DNA of 64,000 nucleotides from assembly GCF_027912835.1 (NCBI RefSeq), contig NZ_CP115768.1, positions 2,596,501-2,660,500 on the forward strand. Reading direction: 5' to 3'. Positions 16,628 to 32,218 of this stretch are shown here, one piece after another; positions within the stretch are counted from its first letter, which is position 1, and every line of letters starts with the position of its first letter. The notes below the pieces were generated by a model. That model searched no databases. It saw only the letters and a program-made list of their open reading frames with translations, and was not told the origin of the DNA. The stretch is from Paracoccus sediminicola (GTDB taxonomy: Bacteria; Pseudomonadota; Alphaproteobacteria; Rhodobacterales; Rhodobacteraceae). The position numbers and the translations under genes were made by a program.

Positions 16628-16980
16628 TGAGGTTAGTCTATCTAGCCATCGGGTGGGTTGCGGTCAGCTGCGCCGTCGTCGGTGCGTTCCTGCCAATTCT
16701 TCCGACCGTGCCTTTTCTTCTCGTCGCGCTGTGGGCGTTCAGCCGATCGTCCGAGAAGCTACGCCAGCGGCTGCTCTCTGATCCGGTGTTTGGTCCCGAT
16801 ATCCGGAGGTGGCAGGAACGGGGGGCGATACGCCGTTCGGCCAAGGTCATGGCGGTCGCAGCCATGACAGGCAGCGTGGTGATCGCCTATTTTCTGGATG
16901 TGCCGCATCTTTTCCTGATTGCACAGGCAACGATACTTGGCCTCGTAGCGATCTATATCGTTACACGGGCCGAGGCTTAG
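16627..16980 (+). CDS. YbaN/DUF454-family small membrane protein
   Basis: A 117-residue inner-membrane protein of the DUF454 (YbaN) family, function unknown. It shows an N-terminal membrane segment with the family motif GAFLPILPTVPFLLVALWAF, a cytosolic loop with WQERGAIRRSAKVMA, and two further hydrophobic segments to the end. The start shares one base with the hemW stop. Its stop overlaps the end of convergent parB by three bases, leaving no room for a terminator. Confidence 0.85.
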   Translation: MRLVYLAIGWVAVSCAVVGAFLPILPTVPFLLVALWAFSRSSEKLRQRLLSDPVFGPDIRRWQERGAIRRSAKVMAVAAMTGSVVIAYFLDVPHLFLIAQATILGLVAIYIVTRAEA

Positions 16981-17855
16981 GCGCTTCCCGCAAGGATCTG
17001 GCAAAGCCGGTCGAGCTGTTCCAGATCGCGATACGTGATCTCCATTTTGCCGCCATCGGTGCCGGCATGTTTGATCCGGACACGCATATTGAGCGTTGCG
17101 GTCAGGTCACCCTCCAAGGCTCGCGTGTCGGCATCTTTCTCGTCAACTTGCCGAGGACGCGATAGCTTGGGCGACCTCTCTCGCATCATCGCTTCAACTT
17201 CACGAACGGAAAGGTCTTTGTCGATGATCTTTCGGGCAAGTGCGGTGGGATTTTCGGCTGTAATCAATGCGCGCGCGTGACCAGCGCTGAGCTTTTCTTC
17301 CCGCACCCAGTCCTGAACCTGGTCAGGCAGGTTCAGAAGACGAAGGAAATTTGCAATATGGCTTCGGCTTTTTCCGAGAGCTTCGGCGAGCTTTTCCTGA
17401 GTATGCCCGAAGCGCGTCATGAGCTGACGATAGGATGCGGCCTCGTCTATTGCGTTGAGGTCGGCGCGCTGAATATTCTCGATGATGGCAACTTCCAGCA
17501 TTTCGGCGTCGCTGAAGTCACGCACCAGGACCGGAAGCTCGTGCAGCTGCGCAAGCTGCGCAGCGCGCCAGCGACGCTCGCCGGCAACGATCTGATAGAT
17601 GTTTTCGTCGTCTGGATGGCGGCGGACGATAAGCGGTTGGATCACACCTCGGTGGCGGATCGAGTCGGCGAGCTCGCTCAGGGCCGCCTCGTCGAATATG
17701 CGGCGAGGCTGGTCGGGGTTTGGTGTGATTTGCTCAATCGGCACGGCGGATGCGTTGCCGCGCGGTTGCGACGTGGCGTTACCCTCGTCAGTCTGGAGGT
17801 CCGCCATAAGCGCCGAAAGCCCCCGGCCAAGGCTGCTGCGTTTGTTCTGGCTCAT
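16977..17855 (-). CDS. parB: ParB chromosome-partitioning protein
   Basis: CTP-dependent DNA clamp that binds parS and spreads to organise origin segregation. The 292-residue protein has the ParB/sulfiredoxin-like domain with the Arg patch GERRWRAAQLA. It also has the helix-turn-helix KLAEALGKSRSHIANFLRLL and a C-terminal dimer segment. Its ATG overlaps the parA stop (17852-17855), so the two form one unit. Two parS palindromes lie 1.3 and 3.2 kb upstream in rsmG and mnmG. Confidence 0.97.
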   Translation of the reverse strand: MSQNKRSSLGRGLSALMADLQTDEGNATSQPRGNASAVPIEQITPNPDQPRRIFDEAALSELADSIRHRGVIQPLIVRRHPDDENIYQIVAGERRWRAAQLAQLHELPVLVRDFSDAEMLEVAIIENIQRADLNAIDEAASYRQLMTRFGHTQEKLAEALGKSRSHIANFLRLLNLPDQVQDWVREEKLSAGHARALITAENPTALARKIIDKDLSVREVEAMMRERSPKLSRPRQVDEKDADTRALEGDLTATLNMRVRIKHAGTDGGKMEITYRDLEQLDRLCQILAGSA

Positions 17856-18631
17856 ACTTGCATCTCCATCTGCCGGCTGAGGAATTCTTGGGTAAGCGCC
17901 TTATAGGCACGGCTGCCCGATGACGCAGGGTCATAGATGGTGACCGGAAGCCCGTGGGAGGGAGCCTCCGAGATACGGACATTTCGTGGTATGATGGTGC
18001 TATAGACCAGTTCGCCCAGCGTCGCCCTCGCGTCAGCCTCGACCTGTTGAGACAGATTATTCCTGCCATCATACATCGTGAGAATCACCCCATCCAAGCG
18101 GAGGTCGGGATTTGCGCCCTGCCGAACCTCCCGGACAGTCATCAAAAGCTGCGACAAACCTTCGAGCGCATAAAATTCGGCCTGTAGCGGGACGAGAACC
18201 GATGTAGCGGCGACCAGCGCGTTGATCGTCAGAAGACCGAGCGCGGGTGGGCAGTCGATGAGGATGTAATCGAAGTCCTCATTATCCGCCAAAACGGTTT
18301 TAAGCAGGCGAATGCGGTCTGGCTTCGACGCGAAATCAATATCGCCGGAGCTGAGATCCGGTGTCGACGGAACCAGAAAAAGCCGTTCGATAACGGTTTC
18401 GACCACTGTTTCGGCGAGCCGGTGCTGTCCTGACAGCAGATCATAAGACGTCGCAGCCCGGCCTTTCACCGGGCAGCCAACCCCCGTCGAGGCATTTCCC
18501 TGCGGATCCAAGTCTATGATCAGGGTGCGATTGCCCTTCGCAGCAAGCTCGGAACCCAAATTGACCGCTGTGGTGGTTTTTCCGACACCACCCTTCTGGT
18601 TGGCGACGGCGATCACGACGGTATCAGTCAT
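17852..18631 (-). CDS. parA: ParA chromosome-partitioning ATPase
   Basis: ParA/Soj-type ATPase that moves ParB-parS complexes. The 259-residue protein has the deviant Walker A motif ANQKGGVGKTTTAVNLG with Lys13 and Lys18, followed by LIIDLDPQGNASTG and the Walker B region YILIDCPPALGLLT. There is no N-terminal helix-turn-helix, as expected for a chromosomal ParA. It overlaps rsmG upstream by eight bases and parB downstream by four, forming the classic rsmG-parA-parB unit. Confidence 0.97.
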   Translation of the reverse strand: MTDTVVIAVANQKGGVGKTTTAVNLGSELAAKGNRTLIIDLDPQGNASTGVGCPVKGRAATSYDLLSGQHRLAETVVETVIERLFLVPSTPDLSSGDIDFASKPDRIRLLKTVLADNEDFDYILIDCPPALGLLTINALVAATSVLVPLQAEFYALEGLSQLLMTVREVRQGANPDLRLDGVILTMYDGRNNLSQQVEADARATLGELVYSTIIPRNVRISEAPSHGLPVTIYDPASSGSRAYKALTQEFLSRQMEMQV

Positions 18632-19217
18632 TTTGCTCGATATTCCTCAGTTGAATGACAGCAGAGGCGGCGTCAGTCACACTTTGGTAGGTTTCTATGT
18701 CGAAGCGCCAAGAGCGTCTAGCCTCTTCGACTTCACGTTTCCAATTTCGGCCTTTGAGCAGCCATGTCGCACCGTCGCGCGACATTAGCCGATGGACATG
18801 GGGAAGCAGAGCTTTCAATGGGGCTAGGGCTCTGGCGCTCACGAATTGATGATCGCCAGTCGGCAATGATTCAATCCTTTTGGCGGTAATCGCGAGATTG
18901 GGTAGGGACAGTTCTCGCGCAACGGTTCTTAGGAACGCGGCCTTTCGCGTGTCGCTTTCGACGAGTTCGAATTCAACGTTCGTTCCGGCGGCCATGATGG
19001 CAATCACAACACCTGGCAAACCGCCTCCGCTGCCAAGATCCAGCCAGCGCCCGTCTGTCGGTGTGGCCAGCGTGTAAAGTTGCGCAGAGTCGCTGATATG
19101 CCGATGATGAATCGAATTGATCGTGCTAGGAGCAACCAGATTTATGGTCCGGTTCCACTTGATGAGCAGATCTGTATAAGCATCAAGCCGGCGCTTTGTT
19201 TCACGTGAAACACTCAA
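18624..19217 (-). CDS. rsmG: RsmG, 16S rRNA (guanine527-N7)-methyltransferase
   Basis: Methylates G527 of 16S rRNA. The SAM-binding motif WLDLGSGGGLPGVVIAI and the LVESDTRKAAFLR segment identify it. I choose the TTG at 19217, giving 197 residues starting (M)SVSRETKRRLDAY, the family N-terminus. A longer ATG reading from 19295 would lie inside mnmG. The TTG is two bases after the mnmG stop. The bases coding for Val-Ser-Arg-Glu-Thr form a perfect parS site, explaining why this N-terminus is conserved near origins. Confidence 0.94.
   Translation of the reverse strand: MSVSRETKRRLDAYTDLLIKWNRTINLVAPSTINSIHHRHISDSAQLYTLATPTDGRWLDLGSGGGLPGVVIAIMAAGTNVEFELVESDTRKAAFLRTVARELSLPNLAITAKRIESLPTGDHQFVSARALAPLKALLPHVHRLMSRDGATWLLKGRNWKREVEEARRSWRFDIETYQSVTDAASAVIQLRNIEQND
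19197..19212. other. parS site 1, at the 5' end of rsmG
   Basis: TGTTTCACGTGAAACA, a perfect 16-bp palindrome identical to the ParB-binding consensus. It lies in the first codons of rsmG, just after the mnmG stop. Confidence 0.93.
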
Positions 19218-19219
19218 TG

Positions 19220-21058
19220 TCAGCCTGCACGGCGAGAGCGACGGGTGAGCGCCAAAAGCAGCGACAAGGCGGCAGGCGTCATCCCTTCGATACACGACGC
19301 TTCGGCGATCGAACTCGGTCGATACTTTGCCAGCTTACCTTTGATCTCGTTCGAAAGGCCAGGGATGGTGCTGTAGTCAAACTGTGCTGGCAGCTCGACG
19401 GCTCGGTCTTTCGCCAGACTTTCCGCCTCGCGTTGCTGACGCTCCTCATATTGAGCGTAGATAGCGTCAATTTTAAGTTGAATTTCGATCGCCTCAGGCC
19501 AATGCGGAAGCTCGCTGTCAATTTCGCGCAGTTTATTCAGGCACGCGTCGCCCGACAGCAACTGAAATGCCGATCGGCGCTGGCCGTCGCGGCCAGACTT
19601 TATCTCATGTTCCGCAAGGTTCTTCGGGGAATATAGACGCGCGCATAAATCTTCCCGTGCCGCGGACAACATTGCAGCCTTCTCACTGAACCTGGCCTCA
19701 CGTGCCCGACCCACGCACCCAAGTTGAATACCCAATGGTGTCAGTCGCTGATCGGCGTTATCTGCACGCAGCGACAGGCGAAACTCCGCCCGAGATGTGA
19801 ACATCCGGTAAGGCTCAGAAACGCCGCGGCTCGTAAGATCATCGATCATCACCCCGATGTAGGAGCTTGCTCGGGTAAAGTGCACCGGCATGTCCGAAGC
19901 CGCATTCAACCCTGCGACCAGACCCTGCGCCGCAGCCTCTTCATAACCTGTCGTTCCATTAATCTGACCTGCGAGATAGAGCCCTGGCATCTCTTTTAGC
20001 TGCAGCGACTGATCCAGATTTCGTGGATCAACATAATCATACTCCACGGCGTAACCCGGCTGAACAATCTCTGCGCGCTCCAAGCCGACGATCGTCCGGA
20101 CATAATCTTGTTGCACATCCTCGGGGAGCGATGTCGAGATGCCGTTCGGATATACGAGGTCGCTCTCTAGCCCTTCAGGCTCAAGAAAGATCTGATGAGA
20201 GTCCTTGTCACCGAAACGGTGGATTTTATCTTCAATGGAAGGGCAATATCGCGGACCTGCGCCTTCAATCCGACCACCATACATAGCCGATCTATGGAGA
20301 TTCTCTCTGATGATATGATGCGTCTTTTCGTTGGTGTGAGTAACCCCACATTCGATCTGGCGCAGTTGCTTTCCTGAGGTCGCGAAAGAAAGAAAAACCG
20401 GACTCTCGTCCGCTGGCTGCTTATCCAATACTGCCCAGTTGATGGAGGCACTCTTCAAGCGGGGCGGAGTGCCCGTCTTCAAGCGGCCCAGTTTCAGGCC
20501 CAATTCGGCTATCCGGTCGGACAGCCTCGCTGAAGACTGATCGCCCCAGCGGCCTGCCATAACCGTCCTCTCACCAATATGGATCAGACCTTTGAGAAAG
20601 GTGCCGGTCGTGAGGACGACCTTTTGAGCACGGATCTGCTCATCACCCATCTTCACACCAGCGACTCGGCCTCCCTCCACCACAAGGTCGGTAACCATGC
20701 CCAATATCACGCGGATATTAGGTTCGGCAGCTACCGCGTTGCGGGCGGCACGCCGGTAAGCATCGCGATCAGCTTGCGTCCTCGGCCCTTGGACAGCAGG
20801 CCCCTTTCTCCGGTTTAGAAGCCGATATTGAATTCCGGCTGCATCAGCCAACCGGCCCATGAGGCCATCCAAGGCGTCTATTTCGCGAACAAGGTGCCCT
20901 TTGCCCAGACCACCAATTGCCGGATTACAGGACATCGTTCCGATATCGCGCTCCGACATCGTCACCAGCGCGACCCGCCGTCCAAGACGCGCAGCAGCAG
21001 CAGCAGCCTCTGTGCCAGCGTGGCCTCCGCCAACGACGATGACATCGAATTGTTTCAC
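19220..21058 (-). CDS. mnmG: MnmG (GidA), tRNA uridine-34 carboxymethylaminomethylation enzyme
   Basis: FAD protein that with MnmE modifies the wobble uridine of several tRNAs. The 612-residue protein has the FAD motif [52 protein letters not shown] and the C-terminal MnmG domain ending [14 protein letters not shown]. The start is a GTG at 21058, giving [11 protein letters not shown]. That GTG sits inside a parS palindrome (21051-21066), so the start codon doubles as ParB-binding DNA. It lies 12 bases after mnmE and two bases before rsmG. Confidence 0.98.
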
Positions 21059-21066
21059 GTGAAACG
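21051..21066. other. parS site 2, containing the GTG start codon of mnmG
   Basis: TGTTTCACGTGAAACG, matching the 16-bp parS consensus at 15 positions. The mnmG start GTG is read from its minus strand. Confidence 0.9.
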
Positions 21067-21070
21067 GCCT

Positions 21071-22330
21071 CTACTTTCCAATACAAAATCTGCTGAAGAC
21101 CCGGTCAAGATAATCCTCGACATCGATTCTGCCAATCAATCTCTGGAGGTGGTGGCTAGCTGCCCTTAAATGCTCCGAAACGATCTCTACCTCATGGCCC
21201 GAGACATGCGCCAACTCCCGCGCCGCATCGCTCAGGGCGTCCGCCTGCCGAGCGTGGCTCGCCAGTCCCGTTTCCGAAACACGTTCCCGCAGCTCTTCAA
21301 AAATCTCTGAGAGTAGAGTGTCGATGCCTTCCCCCGTCACGCTCGATACGGCCCCATCGCGACCGGTAAGATCACCCTTGGTGTGGATCTCAAGGTCGCC
21401 GGGGCACTTATGATCAAGCATATCTTCTGGGATCTCACCCACAAACACCCGCAGATCAGCGTTCAGGGCGCGGTCTCGCGACCGATCAATACCGATGCCC
21501 TCCACAAGATCGCTGGTCTCACGTATCCCGGCAGTGTCCAGAAACGTCACCGGCAACCCTCTCAGGTCAGCGCGAAACTCGACGATATCCCGCGTCGTTC
21601 CAGCCTGGTCAGTAACTATGGCGATATCCCGACGTGCAATCGCATTTAACAACGATGACTTGCCCGCGTTAGGTGCGCCGACCAAGGCAACCTCAAAGCC
21701 TTGCCGCAACCGTTCAGTCGCCGGATAGCTGGCCAGCTGCGCTTCGACCGATCGCCGAACCCGCTCGATCCTCCGATCTACATCTGCCGCGACATCATCG
21801 GGGATTTCCTCGTCGGCGAAATCGATTGCCGCCGTCAGCATCGCCCCTGCCTCTACCAAGTCGTCGCGCCAGCCTTCCACAAGACGGCCAAGCGCGCCCC
21901 CGCTTACTTGAACGGCGAGTTTACGCTGCGCCTCGGTTTCTGCAGCAAGCAGATCAGACAGGCCCTCCACCTCCGCAAGATCCATGTTTCCAGACTGAAA
22001 CGCCCGCAGCGTGAACTCGCCCGGCTCTGCCCGCCTTGCACCTCTCGACAGGATAGCACGCTCGAGTCGTTTCACCACGACGGGCGCACCGTGCAGGTGA
22101 AATTCGACCACGGCCTCGCCCGTAAAGCTCGCCCCTTCGTTAAAGCGCATCACCAGGCCCTGATCGATACGATCATTGCCGTCCGAGATCTGCCTGAGAT
22201 ACCCATGTCGGGCATCGCCCAAAGGACCCGTCAGCTCCTCTGCAATCCGCTGCGCTTCAGGCCCGCTGACCCGAATGATCGACACGCCGCCGCGGCCGGG
22301 CGGGGTCGCTTCTGCGAAAATGGTGTCCAA
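21071..22330 (-). CDS. mnmE: MnmE (TrmE), tRNA modification GTPase
   Basis: GTPase partner of MnmG. The 419-residue protein has the tetrahydrofolate-binding N-terminal domain (TIFAEATPPGRGGVSIIRVSG). A G domain is inserted after about residue 215, with Walker A GAPNAGKSSLLNA, G2 TTRDIVE and G3 DTAGIRE. The obligatory C-terminal FCIGK carries the catalytic Cys. It is somewhat shorter than E. coli MnmE (454). It sits seven bases after rho and just before mnmG in the same direction. Confidence 0.97.
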   Translation of the reverse strand: MDTIFAEATPPGRGGVSIIRVSGPEAQRIAEELTGPLGDARHGYLRQISDGNDRIDQGLVMRFNEGASFTGEAVVEFHLHGAPVVVKRLERAILSRGARRAEPGEFTLRAFQSGNMDLAEVEGLSDLLAAETEAQRKLAVQVSGGALGRLVEGWRDDLVEAGAMLTAAIDFADEEIPDDVAADVDRRIERVRRSVEAQLASYPATERLRQGFEVALVGAPNAGKSSLLNAIARRDIAIVTDQAGTTRDIVEFRADLRGLPVTFLDTAGIRETSDLVEGIGIDRSRDRALNADLRVFVGEIPEDMLDHKCPGDLEIHTKGDLTGRDGAVSSVTGEGIDTLLSEIFEELRERVSETGLASHARQADALSDAARELAHVSGHEVEIVSEHLRAASHHLQRLIGRIDVEDYLDRVFSRFCIGK

Positions 22331-22336
22331 GAAATC

Positions 22337-23608
22337 TCACGCGTTCATCGAGTCGAAAAATTCGGAGTTGTTTTTCGTCTGCTTCAGCTTCGAAATCAGG
22401 AACTCGATCGCGTCCGTCGTTCCCATCGGGTTCAGGATACGCCGCAACAGATAGGTCTTCTGAAGATCCTTCGAATCGACAAGCAGCTCTTCCTTACGCG
22501 TGCCGGACTTCAGAATATCCATCGCCGGGAACACACGCTTATCGGCGACCTTGCGGTCGAGCACGATTTCGCTGTTACCAGTGCCTTTGAACTCTTCAAA
22601 GATCACTTCATCCATCCGAGATCCCGTATCGATCAGCGCGGTTGCGATAATCGTAAGCGAGCCACCCTCCTCGATATTTCGCGCGGCACCAAAGAACCGC
22701 TTCGGGCGCTGCAGCGCGTTCGCATCCACACCGCCTGTCAGAACCTTCCCCGAAGAAGGAACCACGGTATTGAACGCACGTCCCAGCCGCGTGATCGAGT
22801 CCAGCAGGATCACCACATCTCGCTTATGCTCGACCAGGCGCTTCGCCTTCTCGATTACCATCTCCGACACGGCCACATGTCGGCTTGCCGGTTCATCGAA
22901 GGTCGAACTGACCACCTCGCCACGCACCGAGCGCTGCATATCGGTCACTTCCTCCGGCCGCTCGTCGATCAGCAGCACGATCAGATAGCACTCGGGATGG
23001 TTCTTCTCGATCGAATGGGCGATGTTTTGCAGCAGCACCGTCTTACCCGTGCGCGGAGGCGCCACGATCAACGAACGCTGCCCCTTCCCGATCGGAGCCA
23101 CCAGGTCTATGATCCGCGCAGAGCGGTCCTTGATGGTCGGGTCCTCGATTTCCATCTTTAGCCGCTCATCCGGATAAAGTGGCGTCAGGTTGTCAAAGGC
23201 CACCTTGTGCCGGGCCCGCTCCGGGTCCTCGAAATTGATGCGTTCGACCTTGGTCAAGGCAAAATAACGCTCATTCTCTCCGGGCGCGCGAATGACACCC
23301 TCGACCGAGTCGCCTGTGCGCAGCGCGTGCTGCCGGATCATGTCGGGGCTGACATAGATATCGTCGGGGCCGGGCAGATAATTTGCCTCGGTCGAGCGCA
23401 AAAAGCCGAACCCGTCCTGAACGACCTCCAGCACACCGTCGCCACCGATATCGTAGCCATCCTCCGCATGCTCCTTGAGGATCGAGAACATCATCTCGCC
23501 CTTGCGCATGGTCGAGGCGTTCTCGATCTCCCATTCCTCGGCCATCGCCAGCAAATCCTTCGGGCTTTTCGCCTTCAGATCGGACAGATTCAACCGCTCT
23601 TCGCTCAT
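22337..23608 (-). CDS. rho: Transcription termination factor Rho
   Basis: Hexameric RNA helicase ending transcription. The 423-residue protein has the N-terminal RNA-binding fold with GFGFLRS and [12 protein letters not shown], the Walker [14 protein letters not shown], the Walker [14 protein letters not shown], and the C-terminal [10 protein letters not shown]. The length is typical. It leads a minus-strand run rho-mnmE-mnmG-rsmG-parA-parB, a conserved order beside alphaproteobacterial origins. The ATG follows a 166-base gap that contains a plausible promoter. Confidence 0.98.
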
Positions 23609-23774
23609 CGCATCACCGCATATCGCACCCGCACGGGCATCGATTTCTATTGTTCAAAGGAAAATATCCGCACCGGACGGGCAGACCGTTGCGCGGCCCT
23701 TAAAGCAGCGCGTGATTCGAGTCAACGTGTCAGGCGCACGGACTCATCTCGGATCAACAGATGGAAGCCATCTC
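23609..23774 (-). promoter_or_regulatory. Leader and candidate promoter of rho
   Basis: This gap holds no convincing gene. On the minus strand TTGACT (23725-23720) is followed after 15 bases by TTTAAG (23704-23699), an acceptable but weak sigma-70 pair for this group. The roughly 90-base leader could allow Rho self-control, which is known in other bacteria and only inferred here. Confidence 0.35.
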
Positions 23775-24221
23775 TTAAAACTTCAAGATCACAGAACATA
23801 CGATGATCACCATCAACAGGGTCGGAACCTCGTTCATCATCCGATAACGCCGACCATCCAGCCCGGCCCCATCACGCAGAGCGACACGCTGGCGTCCCAG
23901 CCAGTGGTGAAACCAGGTCATCATCAGGACGGAAACACCTTTCAGCCAAGGCCAAACCATCGTCCAGTCAACGATACCCGGCGTGAGCACCAACAGCATT
24001 CCGCAGATCCATGCGACAATCATCGCGGGACGCATGATCAGCCGCAGCAGCTTATCCTCCATAATCATGAAGGACGCCGCCGGCTCGTCTGAGTTTCCAC
24101 CTCTCTCGGCATGATAGACAAACAGCCGAGGCAGATAGAAAAGGCCTGCCATCCAAGCAATCACGGCCATGATATGCAGTGATTTTATCCATGGATAGAT
24201 CGAAGAGAGAAGATCAGACAT
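23775..24221 (-). CDS. hemJ: HemJ-type protoporphyrinogen IX oxidase
   Basis: Inner-membrane heme enzyme oxidising protoporphyrinogen IX (UPF0093/HemJ). The 148-residue protein has four membrane segments, the conserved His in IKSLHIMAVIAWMAGLFYLPR, the YHAE motif, and MTWFHHWLGRQR with the RYRMMNEVPTLLM end typical of HemJ. It is the first gene on the left of the oriC-like region and reads away from it. In related genomes hemE is often also found here. No hemE is present in this interval. Confidence 0.92.
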   Translation of the reverse strand: MSDLLSSIYPWIKSLHIMAVIAWMAGLFYLPRLFVYHAERGGNSDEPAASFMIMEDKLLRLIMRPAMIVAWICGMLLVLTPGIVDWTMVWPWLKGVSVLMMTWFHHWLGRQRVALRDGAGLDGRRYRMMNEVPTLLMVIIVCSVILKF

Positions 24222-24591
24222 GGACCTCTCTTATAAATAAAATATGAGATAAGAAAGATGATGATGTTTGTAGGCCATGTGTATGATGGGATAGAGCGCC
24301 CGACCCCGTGTTATCCACAGAAGCCAGTAAAGAATAACGACAATTATATTATTATAACAGTTAGTTAGACAGATAAGACCCTCTTTTCCACACACTGTGG
24401 AAAGCGACGACAGTTTTGTCCAACTGTGGATGAAAGCCTGTCGTTCGCGCTCGGTTCTCATCGCATATCCCCAGAGCGATCCGCCCCCGCTTCCATCCCC
24501 GCGCTTATCCACAATTTCATCCAAGGCCAGCACTCTGACGAGGTAGGATTTTCGCTTTCACCGGTGGGAGAGTAACGCTATCCAAGATCCC
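24222..24591. other. oriC: Probable chromosomal replication origin (oriC)
   Basis: A 370-base gap between divergent hemJ and aroE with no credible gene and clearly lower GC than its surroundings. It has five matches to the DnaA box TTATCCACA: exact at 24311-24319 and 24505-24513, TTTTCCACA at 24384-24392, and inverted CTTTCCACA (24396-24404) and TCATCCACA (24425-24433). An AT-rich block lies beside them. Flanking genes (hemJ/rho and aroE-coaE-dnaQ) and nearby parABS are the usual surroundings of oriC in this class. Confidence 0.85.
24328..24379. other. Candidate DNA-unwinding element within oriC
   Basis: From 24331 to 24370, 31 of 40 bases are A or T, including a run of alternating T and A near 24343-24357. 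It lies between the first DnaA box and the cluster at 24384-24433, where duplex opening would be expected. A second AT-rich patch is at 24230-24270. Confidence 0.5.
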
Positions 24592-25452
24592 ATGACCTTG
24601 CAAAACCAAGAAGAACCGGGTTCGAGACCGGACCATGCGCCAATTGCCGGAGTCATTGGTTGGCCGATCGCCCATTCCCGTTCGCCGCTTCTGCATGGTC
24701 ACTGGCTGAAACGCTACGAATTGCCGGGCGCCTATATAGCTCTTCCGGTGCATCCCGAAGATCTCGGTGCGGTGCTGGGCATTTTGCCTCGCATGGGATT
24801 TGTCGGCGTCAATCTTACGATTCCCCATAAGGAAGCGGCGCTGAAGCTGGCCGATATTGTCACGGATCGCGCGGCGCTGATTGGCGCGGCTAACACCCTG
24901 ATCTTTCGCCAGGATGGAAAAATTCATGCTGATAATACAGATGGTTACGGATTCATCGCCAATCTGATGCAATATGCGCCAGACTGGCGCGCCGATCAGG
25001 GGCCGGCCGCGGTAATCGGTGCGGGCGGCGCGGCGCGTGCTGTGGTCGCATCGCTGCTTGAAAGCGGTGTGCCCGAACTCCGGATCAGCAACCGCACCCG
25101 CTTGCGCGCCGATCAGATCAAGTCTGAATTCGGTGCCAAGGTCGTGGTCTATGACTGGGCGCAGGCCGGAAACATGCTGGAAGGGTCGCGCACGGTTGTG
25201 AATGCAACGTCGATGGGGATGGCGGGGAAAAGCCCGCTGAAGCTGCCGCTCGAAGCGCTTTCCGCGGGGACGCTTGCAACAGATCTCGTCTATACGCCGC
25301 TGATGACAGATTTCCTGAAACAGGCTGAACGGCGCGGATGCGAGATCGTGGACGGCCTCGGCATGCTGCTGCACCAGGCGGCACCGGGTTTTGAGCGCTG
25401 GTTTGGCATAAGGCCAGAAGTAGATGATGCGCTGCGCGAGGCTGTGCTGTGA
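24592..25452 (+). CDS. aroE: Shikimate dehydrogenase
   Basis: NADPH-dependent enzyme of aromatic amino-acid synthesis (3-dehydroshikimate to shikimate). The 286-residue protein has the substrate loop [15 protein letters not shown], the catalytic Lys in [18 protein letters not shown], the nucleotide motif GAGGAARAV with NRTR following, and VNATSMGM. It is the first gene to the right of oriC. It overlaps coaE by four bases, forming aroE-coaE-dnaQ. Confidence 0.97.
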
Positions 25453-26048
25453 CGTTTCGTCTTGGCCTGACGGGGTCCATCGGCATGGGCAAGTCCACGA
25501 CAGCGCGCATGTTCGCCGAGCGTGGCTATCCGGTCTGGGATGCCGACGCCGCCGTCCATCGCCTTTATACCAGCTGCGGCGCTGCCATGTCGCAGGTTTC
25601 TGCCGCGTTTCCGGGTGTCATCAGGGACGGTGTTGTGGATCGCGCGCTTCTGAAAGAAGCTCTGGCAGAGGATGACGCTGCGCTTGAAAAGCTCGAAGCC
25701 ATCGTCCACCCGCTTGTCGCAAGGGACCGTGCAGAGTTCATTTCGCAGGCCGCACAAGGCGGCGCGGCCCTCGTCGTGCTGGATATTCCGCTGCTCTTCG
25801 AAACCGGGGCGGAAGCTGGAATGGATGGGGTCGCCGTCGTTTCGACCGACGCCGCCACCCAGCGGAAGCGTGTGCTGGCCCGTCCGGGAATGACCGAAGA
25901 AACGCTGTCGATGATCCTGTCTCGCCAGCTTCCCGACGACGAAAAACGTGCCCGCGCGGATTGGGTCATTCCCACCGACGATCTGTCTTCAGCGCATGCG
26001 GCGGTCGACGAAATCTGCCGCGAAATTGAGGAGCGGAAAGATGCGTGA
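25449..26048 (+). CDS. coaE: Dephospho-CoA kinase
   Basis: Last step of coenzyme A synthesis. The 199-residue protein has the P-loop [17 protein letters not shown] (residues 6-22), [10 protein letters not shown], and the conserved [11 protein letters not shown] segment with the following [16 protein letters not shown]. The start is a GTG that overlaps the aroE stop. It overlaps dnaQ by eight bases. Confidence 0.97.
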
Positions 26049-26763
26049 AATCGTCATGGACACCGAGACCACCGGGCTCGACCCGGACAAGGGCGACAAG
26101 CTGGTTGAGATCGGTGCGGTCGAGCTGATCAACCATCTGCCCACCGACAATACCTTCCACGAATATATCAACCCGCAGCGCGATGTTCCGGCCGAGGCGG
26201 TCGCCGTCCACGGCCTCACGCAGGAATTTCTCAGCGGCAAGCCGCTGTTTGAACAGGTCGCCGACAAATTTCTCGACTTTATCGGCCCTGACGCGAAGCT
26301 GGTCATCCACAACGCCAGTTTCGACATGAAATTTCTCAATGCCGAGCTGGCTGCTCTGGGTCGTCCGAAACTGCCCTGGTCGCGCGCGATCGATACGCTG
26401 GCCATTGCGCGCGAAAAATTTCCCGGTGCTCAGAACTCGCTCGATGCGCTATGCCGCCGCTTCAATATCGACAACTCGGCGCGGAGCTTGCACGGCGCTC
26501 TGATCGACAGCCAGATCCTGGCCGAGGTCTATCTCGAACTGATCGGCGGTCGCCAACCCGACCTTGTGTTAAGCGCGCCGTCTGAGCAGCATGATCAAAA
26601 CGGCCCAACCGAACGGCATCAATCGCGCAGCGACGCGCGTCAGCGCCCCGCAGCACTCGCTTCACGGCTGAGCGATGCAGAACGTGCCGCCCATGAGGAA
26701 TTCGTCGCGAAGATCGGTGAAAACGCCTTGTGGCATCGCTACGTCAGCCCCTCAGCCGGTTGA
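26041..26763 (+). CDS. dnaQ: DNA polymerase III epsilon subunit (proofreading 3'-5' exonuclease)
   Basis: Proofreading exonuclease of the replicase. The ATG at 26041 gives 240 residues beginning [15 protein letters not shown], which contains ExoI. ExoII is [11 protein letters not shown] and Exo[20 protein letters not shown], so all metal ligands are present. A C-terminal tail for binding the alpha subunit follows. The start lies inside the end of coaE. In many alphaproteobacteria secB follows directly. Here a YihY-type gene follows and secB is about 24 kb away. Confidence 0.97.
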
Positions 26764-27712: not shown

Positions 27713-28794
27713 TAGAGCCGGATCTTCAGTGAACCATGCGCCACGATGGGGCCGGGTGGCTTGAAGGGCAGTCCAGTGGTCTTTGCCAGCCCCGGCTGCG
27801 ACGTCACGATCCCCACGCGCCAGCCGCGGAAACGTGACATCAGCACCTCGCCCATCTGCGCATGCAGCCCGAAAAGCGGGCCTTTATTGCCAATTCGTGT
27901 GCCATAGGGAGGGTTGATGATGACCAGCCCCGGCGGCCCTTCGGGCGGTTTCAGATCGGCGAAGGCGCCCTGTCGGAAATCGCAGAACGCCGAGACCTGC
28001 GCACGCTCGGCATTCTCGCGGCTCATCCGCACGGCTCCGGCATCGCGGTCGTTGCCGCTGAAAAGAAACTTCGGAGCTCGCACGGCGGTGCTTTTCATCC
28101 TGACCCAAATATCCGGATCGAAGCTGGCAAAACGCTCGAACGCAAAATTCCGGTCCCGGCCGGGCAACAGCCCCGCTGCGATCTCTGCGGCTTCGATCAC
28201 GAATGTCCCCGAGCCGCACATCGGGTCAAGGACCGGCTCGCGCCCCTGATAACCGCATTCGCGCAGAAATGCCGCGGCCATGGTCTCGCGCATCGGGGCT
28301 TTCGCCACGGCCTCCTTGTGGCCGCGCTTGTGCAGGCTCTCGCCAGAGGAATCGAGACTGACAACGGCGAGGTCGTCCTCGATCCGCAGCTTTACCACAA
28401 CGTCGGCATCGGGCGAGATATTCGCGCCAAGCTCTTCGCGCAGCGCGCGCTCGATCCGCTGAGCTGCGGCGCCGGCGTGGTAGATACGCGACTTGCGGCA
28501 GCTTGCCTCGACCCGAAGCGGGACAGAGGGGTCAAGCCAGTCGGCCCAGGGCAGCTTCCGGGACCGCTTGTCGAGCTGCGCCAGATGCATCGCCCGGAAC
28601 GAGGCGACCCGCACCAGAACCCGCGTCGCACAGCGCAGCGTCAGATTGGCACGCCAGACCTCGGTCCAGTCGCCTTGCGTTTCGACCCCGCCCGGCACGA
28701 TCTTCGGATCGGCAAAGCCCGCATCACGCGCCTCATCGGCCAGCGGCTGCTCCAACCCCGGCGTCGCGACAAGGAAAATCCCCAGATCGCTCAG
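27694..28794 (-). CDS. THUMP-domain class I RNA methyltransferase (RlmL N-terminal-like)
   Basis: SAM-dependent guanine-N2 type RNA methyltransferase, probably acting on 23S rRNA. It has an N-terminal ferredoxin-like/THUMP region, then the catalytic domain with DPMCGSGTFVIEAAEIA and the NPPYGTRIG motif. The start is uncertain. The family-typical opening FLVATPGLEQPLADEA is in frame, but no ATG, GTG or TTG lies before it. A CTG at 28794 overlaps the stop of the upstream phyR gene in a CTGA arrangement and would give LSDLGIFLVATPG. The first ordinary start codon is TTG at 28755, which would remove part of the conserved opening. The product is about 353-366 residues, shorter than two-domain E. 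coli RlmKL. Confidence 0.82.
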   Translation of the reverse strand: MSDLGIFLVATPGLEQPLADEARDAGFADPKIVPGGVETQGDWTEVWRANLTLRCATRVLVRVASFRAMHLAQLDKRSRKLPWADWLDPSVPLRVEASCRKSRIYHAGAAAQRIERALREELGANISPDADVVVKLRIEDDLAVVSLDSSGESLHKRGHKEAVAKAPMRETMAAAFLRECGYQGREPVLDPMCGSGTFVIEAAEIAAGLLPGRDRNFAFERFASFDPDIWVRMKSTAVRAPKFLFSGNDRDAGAVRMSRENAERAQVSAFCDFRQGAFADLKPPEGPPGLVIINPPYGTRIGNKGPLFGLHAQMGEVLMSRFRGWRVGIVTSQPGLAKTTGLPFKPPGPIVAHGSLKIRLYQTDPL

Positions 28795-29594
28795 CTTGCC
28801 GCCAGCCCTTCGGTCGACGAGAAGAACATGGCCTGGCTTAGCGCCGAGCTGACCTGATCCTCGGTATAGGGTTTCGAAATCAGGAAGGCCGGTTCCGGCC
28901 GGTCGCCGGTCAGCAGCCGTTCGGGGAAGGCGGTGACAAAGATCACCGGCACGTCGCCCAGCGATTGCAGCAGTTCGTTCACCGCGTCGATGCCCGACGA
29001 TCCGTCGGCCAGCTGAATATCGGCGAGAATCAGGTCGGGACGTTTTTCGTCGGCCAGCTGGATCGCGGCGGAGTGGGTGCGTGCGATGCCCGTCACCTCA
29101 TGGCCCATCGCCTGAACGATGCCCTTGAGATCCATCGCGATGATGGTCTCATCCTCGATGATCATCACCTTGCCGCGGACCGACTGGCTCATCTCGTCCA
29201 TGGCGATGCGCACAAGATCCTCGGCCTCACCGGCGTCGATCTGCATCACCTGTCCGATCTCGTCATAGCGGAGCCCCTCGATCGAGCTCAGCAGCAGGGC
29301 CTCGCGCGAATTGGGCGTCAGTTTCGACATCAGCGACTGCGCCCGCGCCCCCCGCGCGCCCCCATCCGCGTCGGCGACCGGCTGACCGCTGGAATCCCAG
29401 ATGGCGTGAAACGCCCGGAACAATCCGACCCGCGTGTCGAGCCCGTCCATCACGCTCCGGTCGGTCAGGATGACCTCCAGCGCGGCGGCAGCATATTTGT
29501 CGCCGACGGTCTGGCTACCCGTAAGCGCGCGGGCGTAGCGCCGCAAAAAGGGCAGCTCGCGCCCGATAGACTTGGCAAGATCGGCAGAAGACAT
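28791..29594 (-). CDS. phyR: PhyR, anti-anti-sigma response regulator of the general stress response
   Basis: When phosphorylated, PhyR binds NepR and frees the sigma factor EcfG. The 267-residue protein has a sigma-like N-terminal half (about residues 1-135, with RELPFLRRYARALTGS and KLTPNSREALLLSSIEGLRYDEI). A receiver domain (141-262) follows, with acidic pair Glu147-Asp148, phospho-acceptor Asp192 in ILADIQLADGSSG, the PhyR-type VIFVTAFPERLL, and Lys in LISKPYTE. The start at 29594 has GAGGT five bases upstream. It is divergent from nepR-ecfG, with which it shares 93 bases. Confidence 0.96.
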   Translation of the reverse strand: MSSADLAKSIGRELPFLRRYARALTGSQTVGDKYAAAALEVILTDRSVMDGLDTRVGLFRAFHAIWDSSGQPVADADGGARGARAQSLMSKLTPNSREALLLSSIEGLRYDEIGQVMQIDAGEAEDLVRIAMDEMSQSVRGKVMIIEDETIIAMDLKGIVQAMGHEVTGIARTHSAAIQLADEKRPDLILADIQLADGSSGIDAVNELLQSLGDVPVIFVTAFPERLLTGDRPEPAFLISKPYTEDQVSSALSQAMFFSSTEGLAAS

Positions 29595-29623
29595 GTAAAC
29601 CTCGATCGTCGCGGCCCTCAAAT

Positions 29624-29648
29624 GGAACCTAGGTGTCATCTATCGGTT
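29624..29648 (+). promoter_or_regulatory. Candidate EcfG-dependent promoter for nepR-ecfG
   Basis: GGAAC (29624-29628), 16 bases, then GGTT (29645-29648), against the EcfG consensus GGAAC-N16/17-CGTT. It lies 39 bases before the nepR ATG, as expected for autoregulation by EcfG. Confidence 0.6.
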
Positions 29649-29687
29649 GAGCGGCGTGCGCACAAGATTGGCGGGATTAACAAAATT

Positions 29688-29834
29688 ATGACGAGTAAGC
29701 GCGACGAGCGAAAAAAAGCTGCTCTCGACAAGCAGATCGACGAAAATCTGAAACGCGTCTACCAGCAGGACAGTGAGCAGGACATACCCGACGAATTGCT
29801 CGCCTTGCTTGAAAAACTCCGCGAGCAGGAGTGA
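29688..29834 (+). CDS. nepR: NepR, anti-sigma factor of EcfG
   Basis: Small anti-sigma factor that holds EcfG inactive until PhyR~P displaces it. ATG at 29688 gives 48 residues, very short even for NepR. The family core is clear: ALDKQIDENLKRVYQ followed by IPDELLALLEKL. Its stop overlaps the GTG start of ecfG (GTGA), so the two proteins are made in step. It is divergent from phyR and follows a candidate EcfG promoter. Confidence 0.93.
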   Translation: MTSKRDERKKAALDKQIDENLKRVYQQDSEQDIPDELLALLEKLREQE

Positions 29835-30430
29835 GAGACTTGGCTGATAAATCGAAGGTCGCGCAGGATCAGAAGTCCGGCGCCAACCCCCGCGACGAAC
29901 TTGTCGATCATCTTCCCGCGCTGCGCGCGTTTGCGCTGTCTCTGACCCGCGAAGGTGCCTCGGCGGATGATCTTGTGCAGGACACCATCGTCAAGGCCTG
30001 GACGAATATGGATAAATTCCAGCCCGGCACCAATCTCCGGGCGTGGCTGTTCACCATTCTGCGCAACACTTTCTATTCCGCCCGTCGCAAGACCAAGCGC
30101 GAAGTGTCTGACGCAGACGGTATTCATGCCGCGAGGCTGGCCACGCGCCCCGAACATGACGGGCGTCTCGCCCTGTCGGACTTCCGCGATGCCTTCGCCC
30201 ATCTGCCCGATGAGCAGCGCGAGGCGCTGATCCTGGTCGGAGCTTCCGGGTTTTCCTATGAAGAAGCCGCTGAAATGACCGGCGTTGCGGTCGGCACGGT
30301 GAAATCCCGCGCCAATCGTGGCCGCCGCAAGCTGGCCGAGCTGCTTCATCTCGAAGAGGGCGAAGAGCTGGAAATGACCGACCGAACCACATTGGCGGCG
30401 ATGGCGTCGAACTCGCCCGTGATGCGCTGA
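29831..30430 (+). CDS. ecfG: EcfG-family RNA polymerase sigma factor
   Basis: Extracytoplasmic-function sigma factor directing the general stress response. The 199-residue protein has region 2 (LTREGASADDLVQDTIVKAW and LRAWLFTILRN) and region 4 (LPDEQREALILVGASGFSYE, then the helix-turn-helix AEMTGVAVGTVKSRANRGRR). The start is GTG at 29831, overlapping the nepR stop. A second in-frame start (TTG, nine bases on) is possible. Partner genes phyR, nepR and a HisKA_2 kinase are all adjacent. Confidence 0.95.
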   Translation: MRDLADKSKVAQDQKSGANPRDELVDHLPALRAFALSLTREGASADDLVQDTIVKAWTNMDKFQPGTNLRAWLFTILRNTFYSARRKTKREVSDADGIHAARLATRPEHDGRLALSDFRDAFAHLPDEQREALILVGASGFSYEEAAEMTGVAVGTVKSRANRGRRKLAELLHLEEGEELEMTDRTTLAAMASNSPVMR

Positions 30431-30436
30431 GGCACG

Positions 30437-32218
30437 ATGCTGCGGGGCCTGCTCGAGACACTCCAGTTCACGAAGGGTCTCGGATTCCGTCTCGCGGCGC
30501 TGCTTTCGGTGGCGATCCTGCCGATCGGGCTGATGTCGCTGATCCAGACGATGTATCTGTCGGGCGAAGCGGAACGCTCGGCAGAGACCGCCATTGTCGG
30601 GCGCACCGGCGCAGCCGCTGCGGGTGAGCGGGCGCTGCTTCAGAGCGCGCTTGGAACAGCGGATGCGCTTGGCCCTGCGGTGCTGCGCGGCATCGACGAT
30701 GCGGCGGCCTGTTCCAACATGCTCAAGAGCTTCGTCGAACGGGGCGCGACCTATGTTTATGCCGGCTTCACCCGGCTGGACGGCACATCGGAGTGCAATT
30801 CCGGCGAGATCGTCGCGGACATGAACGGCTTCACCGCCTATGAGCATTTTCTCGCGAGCCCGACCACCGTTGTGGTCCCGATGCGGCGCGGCGCGGTCAG
30901 TCAGCAGGCGGTGGTTGTGGTCGCGCAGCCCCTTTATCGCGAACGCGAGCTGTTGGGCTATGTCTCGGTCTCGCTGTCTCAGGAACTGCTGCAATCGACG
31001 CATGGGTCGATCTATGGCGGGAAGGGCGCGCGCACCATCACCTTCAATGCCGAGGGCGACATACTGTCCGCCGATGAGGGTGTCGTCGAAGATATCAGCG
31101 GCGCCTTGCCCCGGAATGAGACACTCCGCAGCCTGATATCACGGGCGGAGACCACCTTTACGGACATCACGGCCTCGGGTGAGCAGCGCGTCTTTGCCGT
31201 CGTCTCGGTGGTTCCCGGCCTTGTCTATGCGCTGGGCAGTTTCAGCCCGATGGAGGCAGGGGTGCAGGGCTACCGCGTCACCAAGCTGACCGCGGTGCTG
31301 TTTGCCGTAGCGCTTTGGGCGGTGTCGCTTGGCGTCGCCTATTACGCGGTGTATCGTCTTGTTCTGCGCCATATCCGCGAGTTGCGCGGCCAGATGCGCC
31401 GCTTTGCCGTGGGCGACCGCGCCGCGCCGCCCCGCATCATGGAAGACGCCCCGACCGAGATCGCCGATGTGTCGCGCACCTTTCATAACATGGTGCGAAT
31501 TCTCAATCGCGACGAGGCGGCGCTCGAAGCGGCTATCGACGAGAAGACCGTCCTGCTGAAAGAGGTGCATCACAGGGTGAAGAACAATCTTCAGCTTATC
31601 GCCTCGATCATCTCGATGCAGGGGCGGCTGATCGAGGATGACGATGCAAAGCGCACGCTGCGGTCCGTGCAGGATCGTGTGGCGTCTCTGGCTTCGATCT
31701 ACAAGAATCTCTATCAGGCGGAACATCTGGAATCGGTCGATGCTGATCGGCTCATTTCCGAGGTTATCAATCAGATGACCAGCGCTTCGATGGGCCCCGG
31801 AAAGAGGCTGAAGGTCGACACCAAGCTGGAGCCTCTGATCCTTCAGCCTGATCAGGCAGTGCCGCTGACGCTGCTGACCAACGAGGCTTTCACCAACGCG
31901 ATGAAATATGCAGGCATCCCGCCGGGCCACGATGAGGCATGGGCGCGGGTCAGCCTGGTGCGCGTGGATGGCGATCATGCCGAGCTGAAAGTGACCAATT
32001 CGATCGGCGAGAAGGACCTCAACATCGAAAGCACGGGCCTCGGCGGCCAACTGATCGAGGCGTTCGCCCTGCAACTCGATGGTGAGGCGGTGATCGAGAC
32101 GTCGGAAACCGAATTCACGCTGTCCCTCGTATTCCGCATCGAGGAAATCCGCCCGCTGCCGATCGAGGACCGGAATGTCGTGCTGACCTCGGCAGCGCGG
32201 GAAGGGTCGCGTCACTAG
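30437..32218 (+). CDS. Membrane sensor histidine kinase (HisKA_2/HWE type), likely PhyR kinase
   Basis: A 593-residue sensor kinase six bases after ecfG, so very probably the phosphodonor for PhyR. It has a first membrane helix (about residues 17-40), a periplasmic sensing domain of about 240 residues with two cysteines (AACSNM and TSECNSG), a second helix (283-308) and a HAMP-like segment. The HisKA_2 box KEVHHRVKNNLQLIASI has its phospho-acceptor His near residues 377-378, and an ATPase domain with TNEAFTNAMKYA follows. The periplasmic signal is unknown. The name PhyK would be by analogy. Confidence 0.9.
   Translation: MLRGLLETLQFTKGLGFRLAALLSVAILPIGLMSLIQTMYLSGEAERSAETAIVGRTGAAAAGERALLQSALGTADALGPAVLRGIDDAAACSNMLKSFVERGATYVYAGFTRLDGTSECNSGEIVADMNGFTAYEHFLASPTTVVVPMRRGAVSQQAVVVVAQPLYRERELLGYVSVSLSQELLQSTHGSIYGGKGARTITFNAEGDILSADEGVVEDISGALPRNETLRSLISRAETTFTDITASGEQRVFAVVSVVPGLVYALGSFSPMEAGVQGYRVTKLTAVLFAVALWAVSLGVAYYAVYRLVLRHIRELRGQMRRFAVGDRAAPPRIMEDAPTEIADVSRTFHNMVRILNRDEAALEAAIDEKTVLLKEVHHRVKNNLQLIASIISMQGRLIEDDDAKRTLRSVQDRVASLASIYKNLYQAEHLESVDADRLISEVINQMTSASMGPGKRLKVDTKLEPLILQPDQAVPLTLLTNEAFTNAMKYAGIPPGHDEAWARVSLVRVDGDHAELKVTNSIGEKDLNIESTGLGGQLIEAFALQLDGEAVIETSETEFTLSLVFRIEEIRPLPIEDRNVVLTSAAREGSRH

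Follow-up and report, generated by a model that had tools for sequence, protein, structure and literature searches.

The origin of replication of Caulobacter crescentus, Cori, lies in the intergenic region between hemE and COG1806 and, as far as the available account describes it, combines DnaA boxes with an AT-rich part, an IHF site and five CtrA sites (PMC1914354). Chromosomal origins of Rhodobacteraceae have been predicted by Ori-Finder from DnaA boxes, the skew minimum, a local GC minimum and proximity to parAB; the accessible text of that study gives neither flanking genes nor anatomy, and mentions neither hemE nor parS (PMC6699656). A further report, in its available part, describes dnaA as not conserved near ori in Rhodospirillales and Sphingomonadales, unlike in three other alphaproteobacterial orders (PMC8116508). 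Two described sequence elements also bear on the present locus: the basal unwinding system of Bacillus subtilis, in which a DnaA box is followed by a spacer and DnaA-trios (PMC8287927, PMC6669920), and the alphaproteobacterial LexA motif, published as GTTC-N7-GTTC (PMC3323433).

Here we describe the gap between hemJ and aroE in a Paracoccus species, which we identify, with a probability of about 0.96, as oriC of the main chromosome. The window, that is the whole stretch of 64,000 nucleotides that was analysed, corresponds to positions 2596501-2660500 of the 3,175,232-base main-chromosome contig (C1). Like Cori and the Rickettsia ori, as far as the accessible descriptions of those origins go, the gap is an intergenic region of comparable length that contains DnaA boxes and an AT-rich part and is bordered on one flank by a haem gene; it also shows the same features by which the Ori-Finder origins of Rhodobacteraceae were recognized in the available text (PMC6699656). 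It differs from Cori in its flanks: hemE does not border the gap (the hemE-family match lies at C1:987,714), COG1806 (PF03618) has no match in this genome, and the sole maf match is at C1:508,624.

Table 1. Features of the hemJ-aroE gap and its neighbourhood (window coordinates)
Feature	Position	Strand	Remark
parB	16977..17855	-	TIGR00180, 1.1e-60
parA-like ATPase	17852..18631	-	score under cut-offs of specific models
rsmG (gidB)	18624..19295	-	
parS, exact	19197..19212		5.0 kb from gap
mnmG (gidA)	19220..21058	-	
parS, 1 mismatch	21051..21066		3.2 kb from gap
mnmE	21071..22330	-	
rho	22337..23608	-	
hemJ	23775..24221	-	3.6e-37; score 127.6, slightly under curated cut-off of 138
oriC (highly probable), intergenic hemJ-aroE	24222..24591		370 bp
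A-rich tract adjoining hemJ	24229..24256		A-rich in alignments; predicted unwinding side
DnaA-trio-like ladder	24257..24274	+	G at each third base in genus, then GG
Degenerate DnaA box TCATACACA	24278..24286	-	2 mismatches; beside trio-like ladder
DnaA box TTATCCACA	24311..24319	+	exact
Lowest 60-base G+C of window	24328..24387		25%
IHF-like site position	24355..24367	+	C 97%, A 97%, T 99% in 76 rows; window copy degenerate
DnaA box TTTTCCACA	24384..24392	+	1 mismatch
DnaA box CTTTCCACA	24396..24404	-	2 mismatches
DnaA box TCATCCACA	24425..24433	-	1 mismatch; among the genus's most conserved positions
GTTC-N7-GTTC direct repeat	24443..24457	+	kept at this place in Paracoccus
DnaA box	24505..24513	+	exact; region's most conserved 4-mers, up to 97% of 76 rows
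aroE	24592..25452	+	
coaE	25449..26048	+	
dnaQ	25948..26763	+	ORF; family match from residue 32, ~26041

The boundaries and content of the gap agree with the preliminary description, which had proposed a chromosomal origin in a gene-free, AT-rich interval of 370 bases with five DnaA boxes, two of them exact. The coordinates are exact, the hemJ ORF beginning at 24221 on the minus strand and aroE starting at 24592 on the plus strand; two ORFs of 100 and 285 aa that extend into the gap on the minus strand are taken as spurious. Five TCCACA/TGTGGA cores occur in the 370 bp, compared with 0.14 expected at the window's own density and with a mean of 0.18 and a maximum of 3 in 2000 mononucleotide shuffles. 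As 9-mers, two of the five are exact, two carry a single mismatch and one carries two, and elsewhere in the window no 370-base stretch holds more than one DnaA box at 0-1 mismatch. Exact TTATCCACA occurs 14 times in the genome and 11 times on C1, where the pair in the gap are the only copies less than 1 kb apart; two further contigs have an exact box close to their start, at C3:22-30 and C7:55-63. The AT-richness is likewise borne out (G+C 47.0% versus 62.5%), and by composition the gap appears to contain the AT-rich element of a bacterial oriC. No GANTC is present in the gap (about 0.6 expected from the 105 in the window), Rfam gives no match at 23500-25000, and promoter and terminator scans are at chance level, with a single sigma-70-like match in 24100-24700.

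On the chromosome scale, the gap lies at 2.621 Mb of the 3.175-Mb sequence. GC skew was sampled in 60 stretches plus the window (61 chunks, 30.5% of C1), and the best two-breakpoint fit places the origin at 2.62 Mb (support 2.62-2.63) and the terminus at 1.06 Mb (support 1.03-1.10), so that the chromosome-wide skew inflection falls where the preliminary description had predicted it. With the gap and its antipode held fixed, mean skew in the sampled chunks is +0.018 on one arm and -0.015 on the other (p = 3e-9), and the candidate sits at the GC-skew minimum of the replicon as sampled over 30.5% of C1. The window alone fails to resolve the origin, its cumulative minimum falling at 30208 and not at 24400; resolution is reached only with the larger sample. 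The octamer GGGCAGGG, which we take to be a KOPS-like motif in name and role, is polarized about the same point in the sampled chunks, with forward/reverse counts of 75/17 on the right arm and 19/64 on the left (p = 2e-15). Fitted by itself the octamer places the origin at 2.68-2.80 Mb, off by 60-180 kb, a displacement that may reflect the few octamers near the origin.

The opposite side of the chromosome carries a matching signal. In the chunks at 1,025-1,045 and 1,050-1,065 kb the last of 11 forward GGGCAGGG octamers is at 1,053,612 and the first of 7 reverse ones at 1,055,898, so that the switch at about 1.055 Mb lies 21 kb from the antipode of the candidate. Inside it, at 1,054,722, is an ATAA-N6-TTAT sequence, the only one listed for chunks starting at 0.9-1.2 Mb; a stricter dif-like pattern has no match in any sampled C1 chunk. 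This interval, with its sharp polarity switch and dif-like site, is the probable terminus, and the candidate thus lies opposite a terminus marked by the octamer switch and one dif-like site (loose pattern); on a circular C1, the two arms running from the candidate to the switch would measure 1.609 and 1.566 Mb. Two congener genomes with one or few contigs were sampled in the same terms, G007 with 17 of 20 chunks used and G013 with 20 of 20. Octamer polarity favours the hemJ gap in both (18/1 versus 0/9 in G007, 28/3 versus 10/19 in G013). GC skew favours it weakly in G007 (p = 0.036, with a broad range of supported positions in the 17 chunks) and gives no support in the 20 chunks of G013 (p = 0.48), where the gap falls outside the supported positions listed.

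The gene neighbourhood (Table 1) is the hemJ/rho-aroE-coaE-dnaQ setting originally recognized, with all genes from parB to hemJ on the minus strand and all from aroE to a brkB-like gene right of dnaQ on the plus strand. The outward turn of gene direction on both sides, also claimed from the start, holds for about 7 kb to the left and 3 kb to the right, where an rlmL-like gene on the minus strand comes next. Two parS sites had been placed 3-5 kb away and are found at 3.2 and 5.0 kb; no further parS occurs in the genome at 0-1 mismatch, and both sites lie left of the gap, within rsmG-mnmG-mnmE and near parAB. On the other side, 4-8 kb from the origin (window 28791-32218), is a general stress response cluster with PhyR (minus strand), NepR and an ECF-type sigma factor (plus strand) and a HWE/HisKA_2 histidine kinase.

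Conservation of the region was followed through hemJ. A HemJ search over 31 genomes of the genus, including this one, gave 30 hemJ loci, and at least two DnaA boxes (0-1 mismatch) lie upstream of hemJ in all 30 (this one and 29 others), an exact box being absent in seven. The gene aroE is divergent and adjacent in 26 of the 30, and is not found within 1.5 kb in the other four. Among named HemJ loci (the best 80 of 560), those nearest to the present one are from Paracoccus, in line with the assignment to this genus; 56 of the 80 are from Paracoccus and 24 from other genera, mostly Ruegeria. In 17 of these 56 Paracoccus loci (L099-L103, L105-L110, L112, L115, L116, L128, L129 and L167; only 2.6 kb is visible in L110) aroE, coaE and dnaQ are unmatched beside the origin. 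P. denitrificans, P. yeei and P. versutus are among them; at the P. denitrificans locus (L105) the aroE side is replaced by genes for a Rieske oxygenase and a reductase. The lack of a matched aroE side in the 17 loci marks a rearrangement with one end at oriC. In the 24 non-Paracoccus loci of this set (the best 80 of 560) the distance to aroE is about 1 kb, and maf (4989-5624) stands between the origin and aroE in Ruegeria L125, with the final DnaA box of the origin overlapping the maf ATG start codon. This arrangement matches what we take to be the Caulobacter gene order, maf-aroE-coaE-dnaQ. Given the distance of aroE in the 24 loci and the position of maf in L125, the origin in Paracoccus resembles that of the family with maf removed.

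The 30 genus loci and the 56 named Paracoccus loci (from the best 80 of 560) together gave 86 sequences, of which the 76 distinct ones, the window's row included, were aligned. The rows are not independent, since identical sequences were removed but near-identical ones kept. Mean pairwise identity is 47%, and the conserved blocks coincide with the DnaA boxes, the trio-like ladder, the IHF-like columns and the GTTC repeat; the boxes at 24384-24404, 24425 and 24505 form one conserved block group. The proposal of a chromosomal origin is thus supported by a GC-skew breakpoint opposite an octamer switch, a DnaA-box cluster, an adjacent parABS system with its parS pair, and conservation in the genus.

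The gap is 555 kb from dnaA (C1:582), a distance that may be unusual for the order and that would count against its being oriC if Rhodobacterales were among the three orders reported, in the available text, to keep dnaA near ori (PMC8116508). The origin might accordingly lie beside dnaA at the start of the deposited sequence, the gap being merely a DnaA-regulated promoter region. Deposited genomes are commonly opened at dnaA, and oriC frequently adjoins that gene; octamer polarity in the sampled chunks is also weakly significant with dnaA as origin (p = 0.001). We nevertheless consider this location very improbable, since the GC skew of the sampled chunks shows no difference between arms drawn from dnaA (p = 0.48), the exact DnaA box nearest to dnaA is 125 kb away, with none within 125 kb to its right and none in the last 425 kb of C1, and both parS sites are about 558-560 kb from it if C1 is circular. 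(Two 260-aa frames, at C1:1888727 and C3:87713, give weak DnaA-family matches of equal score and are perhaps, as a guess, copies of an IstB-like transposition helper.) The gap also divides two divergent operons and could be read mainly as a divergent promoter for hemJ-rho and aroE-coaE-dnaQ, with regulatory DnaA boxes. Against this stand the single sigma-70-like match at chance level and the chromosome-wide skew and parS evidence, and boxes and ladder persist where aroE is not adjacent: each of the 19 aligned Paracoccus rows of that kind retains 2-7 DnaA boxes (0-1 mismatch), and the ladder keeps five of its Gs in 14 rows, four in four and three in one. A promoter-only role is hence scarcely credible, and we regard the gap as a genuine, ordinary oriC with one conserved element of its own, the GTTC-N7-GTTC repeat.

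Starting from hemJ, the 76 rows show an A-rich tract, a ladder in which G recurs with a period of three bases, the dinucleotide GG and finally a reverse-oriented DnaA box. All five ladder Gs are present in 57 rows, four in 18 and three in one, and the strict ladder pattern occurs in 53 of the 76 rows compared with 2.6% of shuffles. The window species and seven other rows carry one extra base within the ladder (24269 in the window), and the box core TGTGG at 24278, degenerate in the window species, is intact in 51 of the 76 rows. Outside Paracoccus the strict period-3 ladder is found in 6 of 47 rows, and was therefore rejected as a feature general beyond the genus; 35 show a looser version whose end reads GTAGG or GTTGG. 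The ladder was read as trio-like on what we take to be the strand that the trios of B. subtilis occupy with respect to the box. In the direction leading away from the box it consists of a 4-bp spacer, 3'-GAT-5' and further G-led triplets, the inner ones mostly T-centred. It was compared with a basal unwinding element defined as a DnaA box, a spacer of up to 16 bp and at least three trios with a middle A. As far as the available accounts of the B. subtilis system go, the two are alike in having a DnaA box, a short G/C spacer and a period-3 ladder starting 3'-GAT-5'; they differ in that the inner triplets mostly have a middle T and not A, and in that the box by the ladder is degenerate here.

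Conserved C, A and T columns in the AT-rich middle have the spacing of what we take to be the IHF consensus. At 0-1 mismatch, counting the best match anywhere in a row, an IHF-like match is present in 36 of the 76 rows versus 17.7 in shuffles, and the match in the window itself is poor.

The remaining conserved element is the direct repeat GTTC-N7-GTTC. Scored as the best match anywhere in the stretch, with a few matches off the aligned place (e.g. L025/L094), the exact repeat with spacer 7 occurs in 16 of the 30 genus loci and in 32 of the 56 named Paracoccus loci (from the best 80 of 560), whereas other spacers tested gave 0-1. Counted in the aligned columns, 41 of the 76 rows have both halves intact, 65 the first and 48 the second, and the first GTTC ranks sixth in conservation among 272 overlapping four-base windows. 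A TGTGG-like core precedes the repeat in 60 of the 76 rows, and in every one the distance is 18 bp under a regular expression that allowed 14-22 bp. At this place the exact repeat is absent from all 49 non-Paracoccus loci (24 named, from the best 80 of 560, and 25 order-level, partly overlapping); Ruegeria L132 has a one-mismatch repeat at a similar distance from hemJ, and one of the 25 order-level loci of other genera has an exact copy at a different place. The case for the repeat rests on this conservation because the bare pattern is not rare, with 86 matches in the genome versus 49 for a reversed control, and 3 in the window. A search of the literature, mostly beyond subscription papers, returned in the text available no account of Paracoccus oriC anatomy and none of a GTTC repeat at an origin.

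The half-sites and spacing of the repeat are those of the published alphaproteobacterial LexA motif, as given in the available text (PMC3323433), raising the possibility that it is a LexA operator through which the SOS response acts directly on oriC. The same pattern precedes lexA in 30 of 30 and recA in 30 of 30 loci returned. It is set apart from those boxes by its place in the origin and by its spacer, which lacks the T at position 11 of the genus lexA/recA boxes: a T precedes the second GTTC in 61 of 64 lexA/recA boxes compared with 8 of 41 origin repeats (p = 2e-16). Of the 76 GTTC-N7-GTTC sites on C1, the window site comes 61st when they are ordered by LexA spacer score, and the frequent degradation of the second half-site and the commonness of the pattern weigh in the same direction. 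A LexA site of usual strength is therefore unlikely, weak LexA binding may occur, and direct SOS control of the origin through a LexA operator is doubtful. The repeat ends 134 bp upstream of aroE and might instead be an operator of aroE-coaE-dnaQ rather than part of the origin. This is less probable still, given the constant 18 bp to the DnaA box in all 60 rows matching the pattern used and the persistence of the repeat where aroE is not adjacent: all 19 such rows preserve the first half-site and 13 preserve both, compared with 46 and 28 of the 57 rows with adjacent aroE. That the first half-site is intact in every row without adjacent aroE indicates that the repeat belongs to the origin and not to aroE.

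Judged from these sequence comparisons, the most probable role of the repeat is to bind a dimeric regulator, which would modulate DnaA assembly. The full CtrA site TTAA-N7-TTAA is absent from the window and found in 5 of the 76 Paracoccus rows, compared with the five sites of Cori in its available description (PMC1914354). The TTAA-N7-TTAA and GTTC-N7-GTTC patterns share an 11-bp period. We tentatively suggest that the repeat could be a genus-level control site within the origin, at which a dimeric regulator held at fixed helical phase beside a DnaA box gates initiation in place of the CtrA sites of Caulobacter; possible regulators would be LexA itself, binding less tightly, or a response regulator of the OmpR type that shares the 11-bp geometry of CtrA.

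Combined with what is established about DnaA, IHF and basal unwinding, from which the DnaA and unwinding steps are drawn, the arrangement suggests how the origin may work. DnaA would assemble on the boxes from 24278 to 24513 while IHF (or HU) bends the AT-rich middle, and the DnaA oligomer would run from the box near hemJ onto the trio-like ladder and open the A-rich tract. Two helicases would then load and forks depart in both directions, after which ParB bound to the two parS sites would segregate the new origins. As a weaker step, a dimeric regulator on the repeat, 18 bp from a DnaA box, might modulate DnaA assembly.

These results place the origin of a Paracoccus chromosome more than 0.5 Mb from dnaA and indicate which of its parts the genus keeps, namely the box positions, the trio-like ladder, the IHF-like columns and the direct repeat. 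Should a regulator of the damage response or the cell cycle bind the repeat, this would tie that signal to the start of replication, in a group whose origins mostly lack full CtrA sites.
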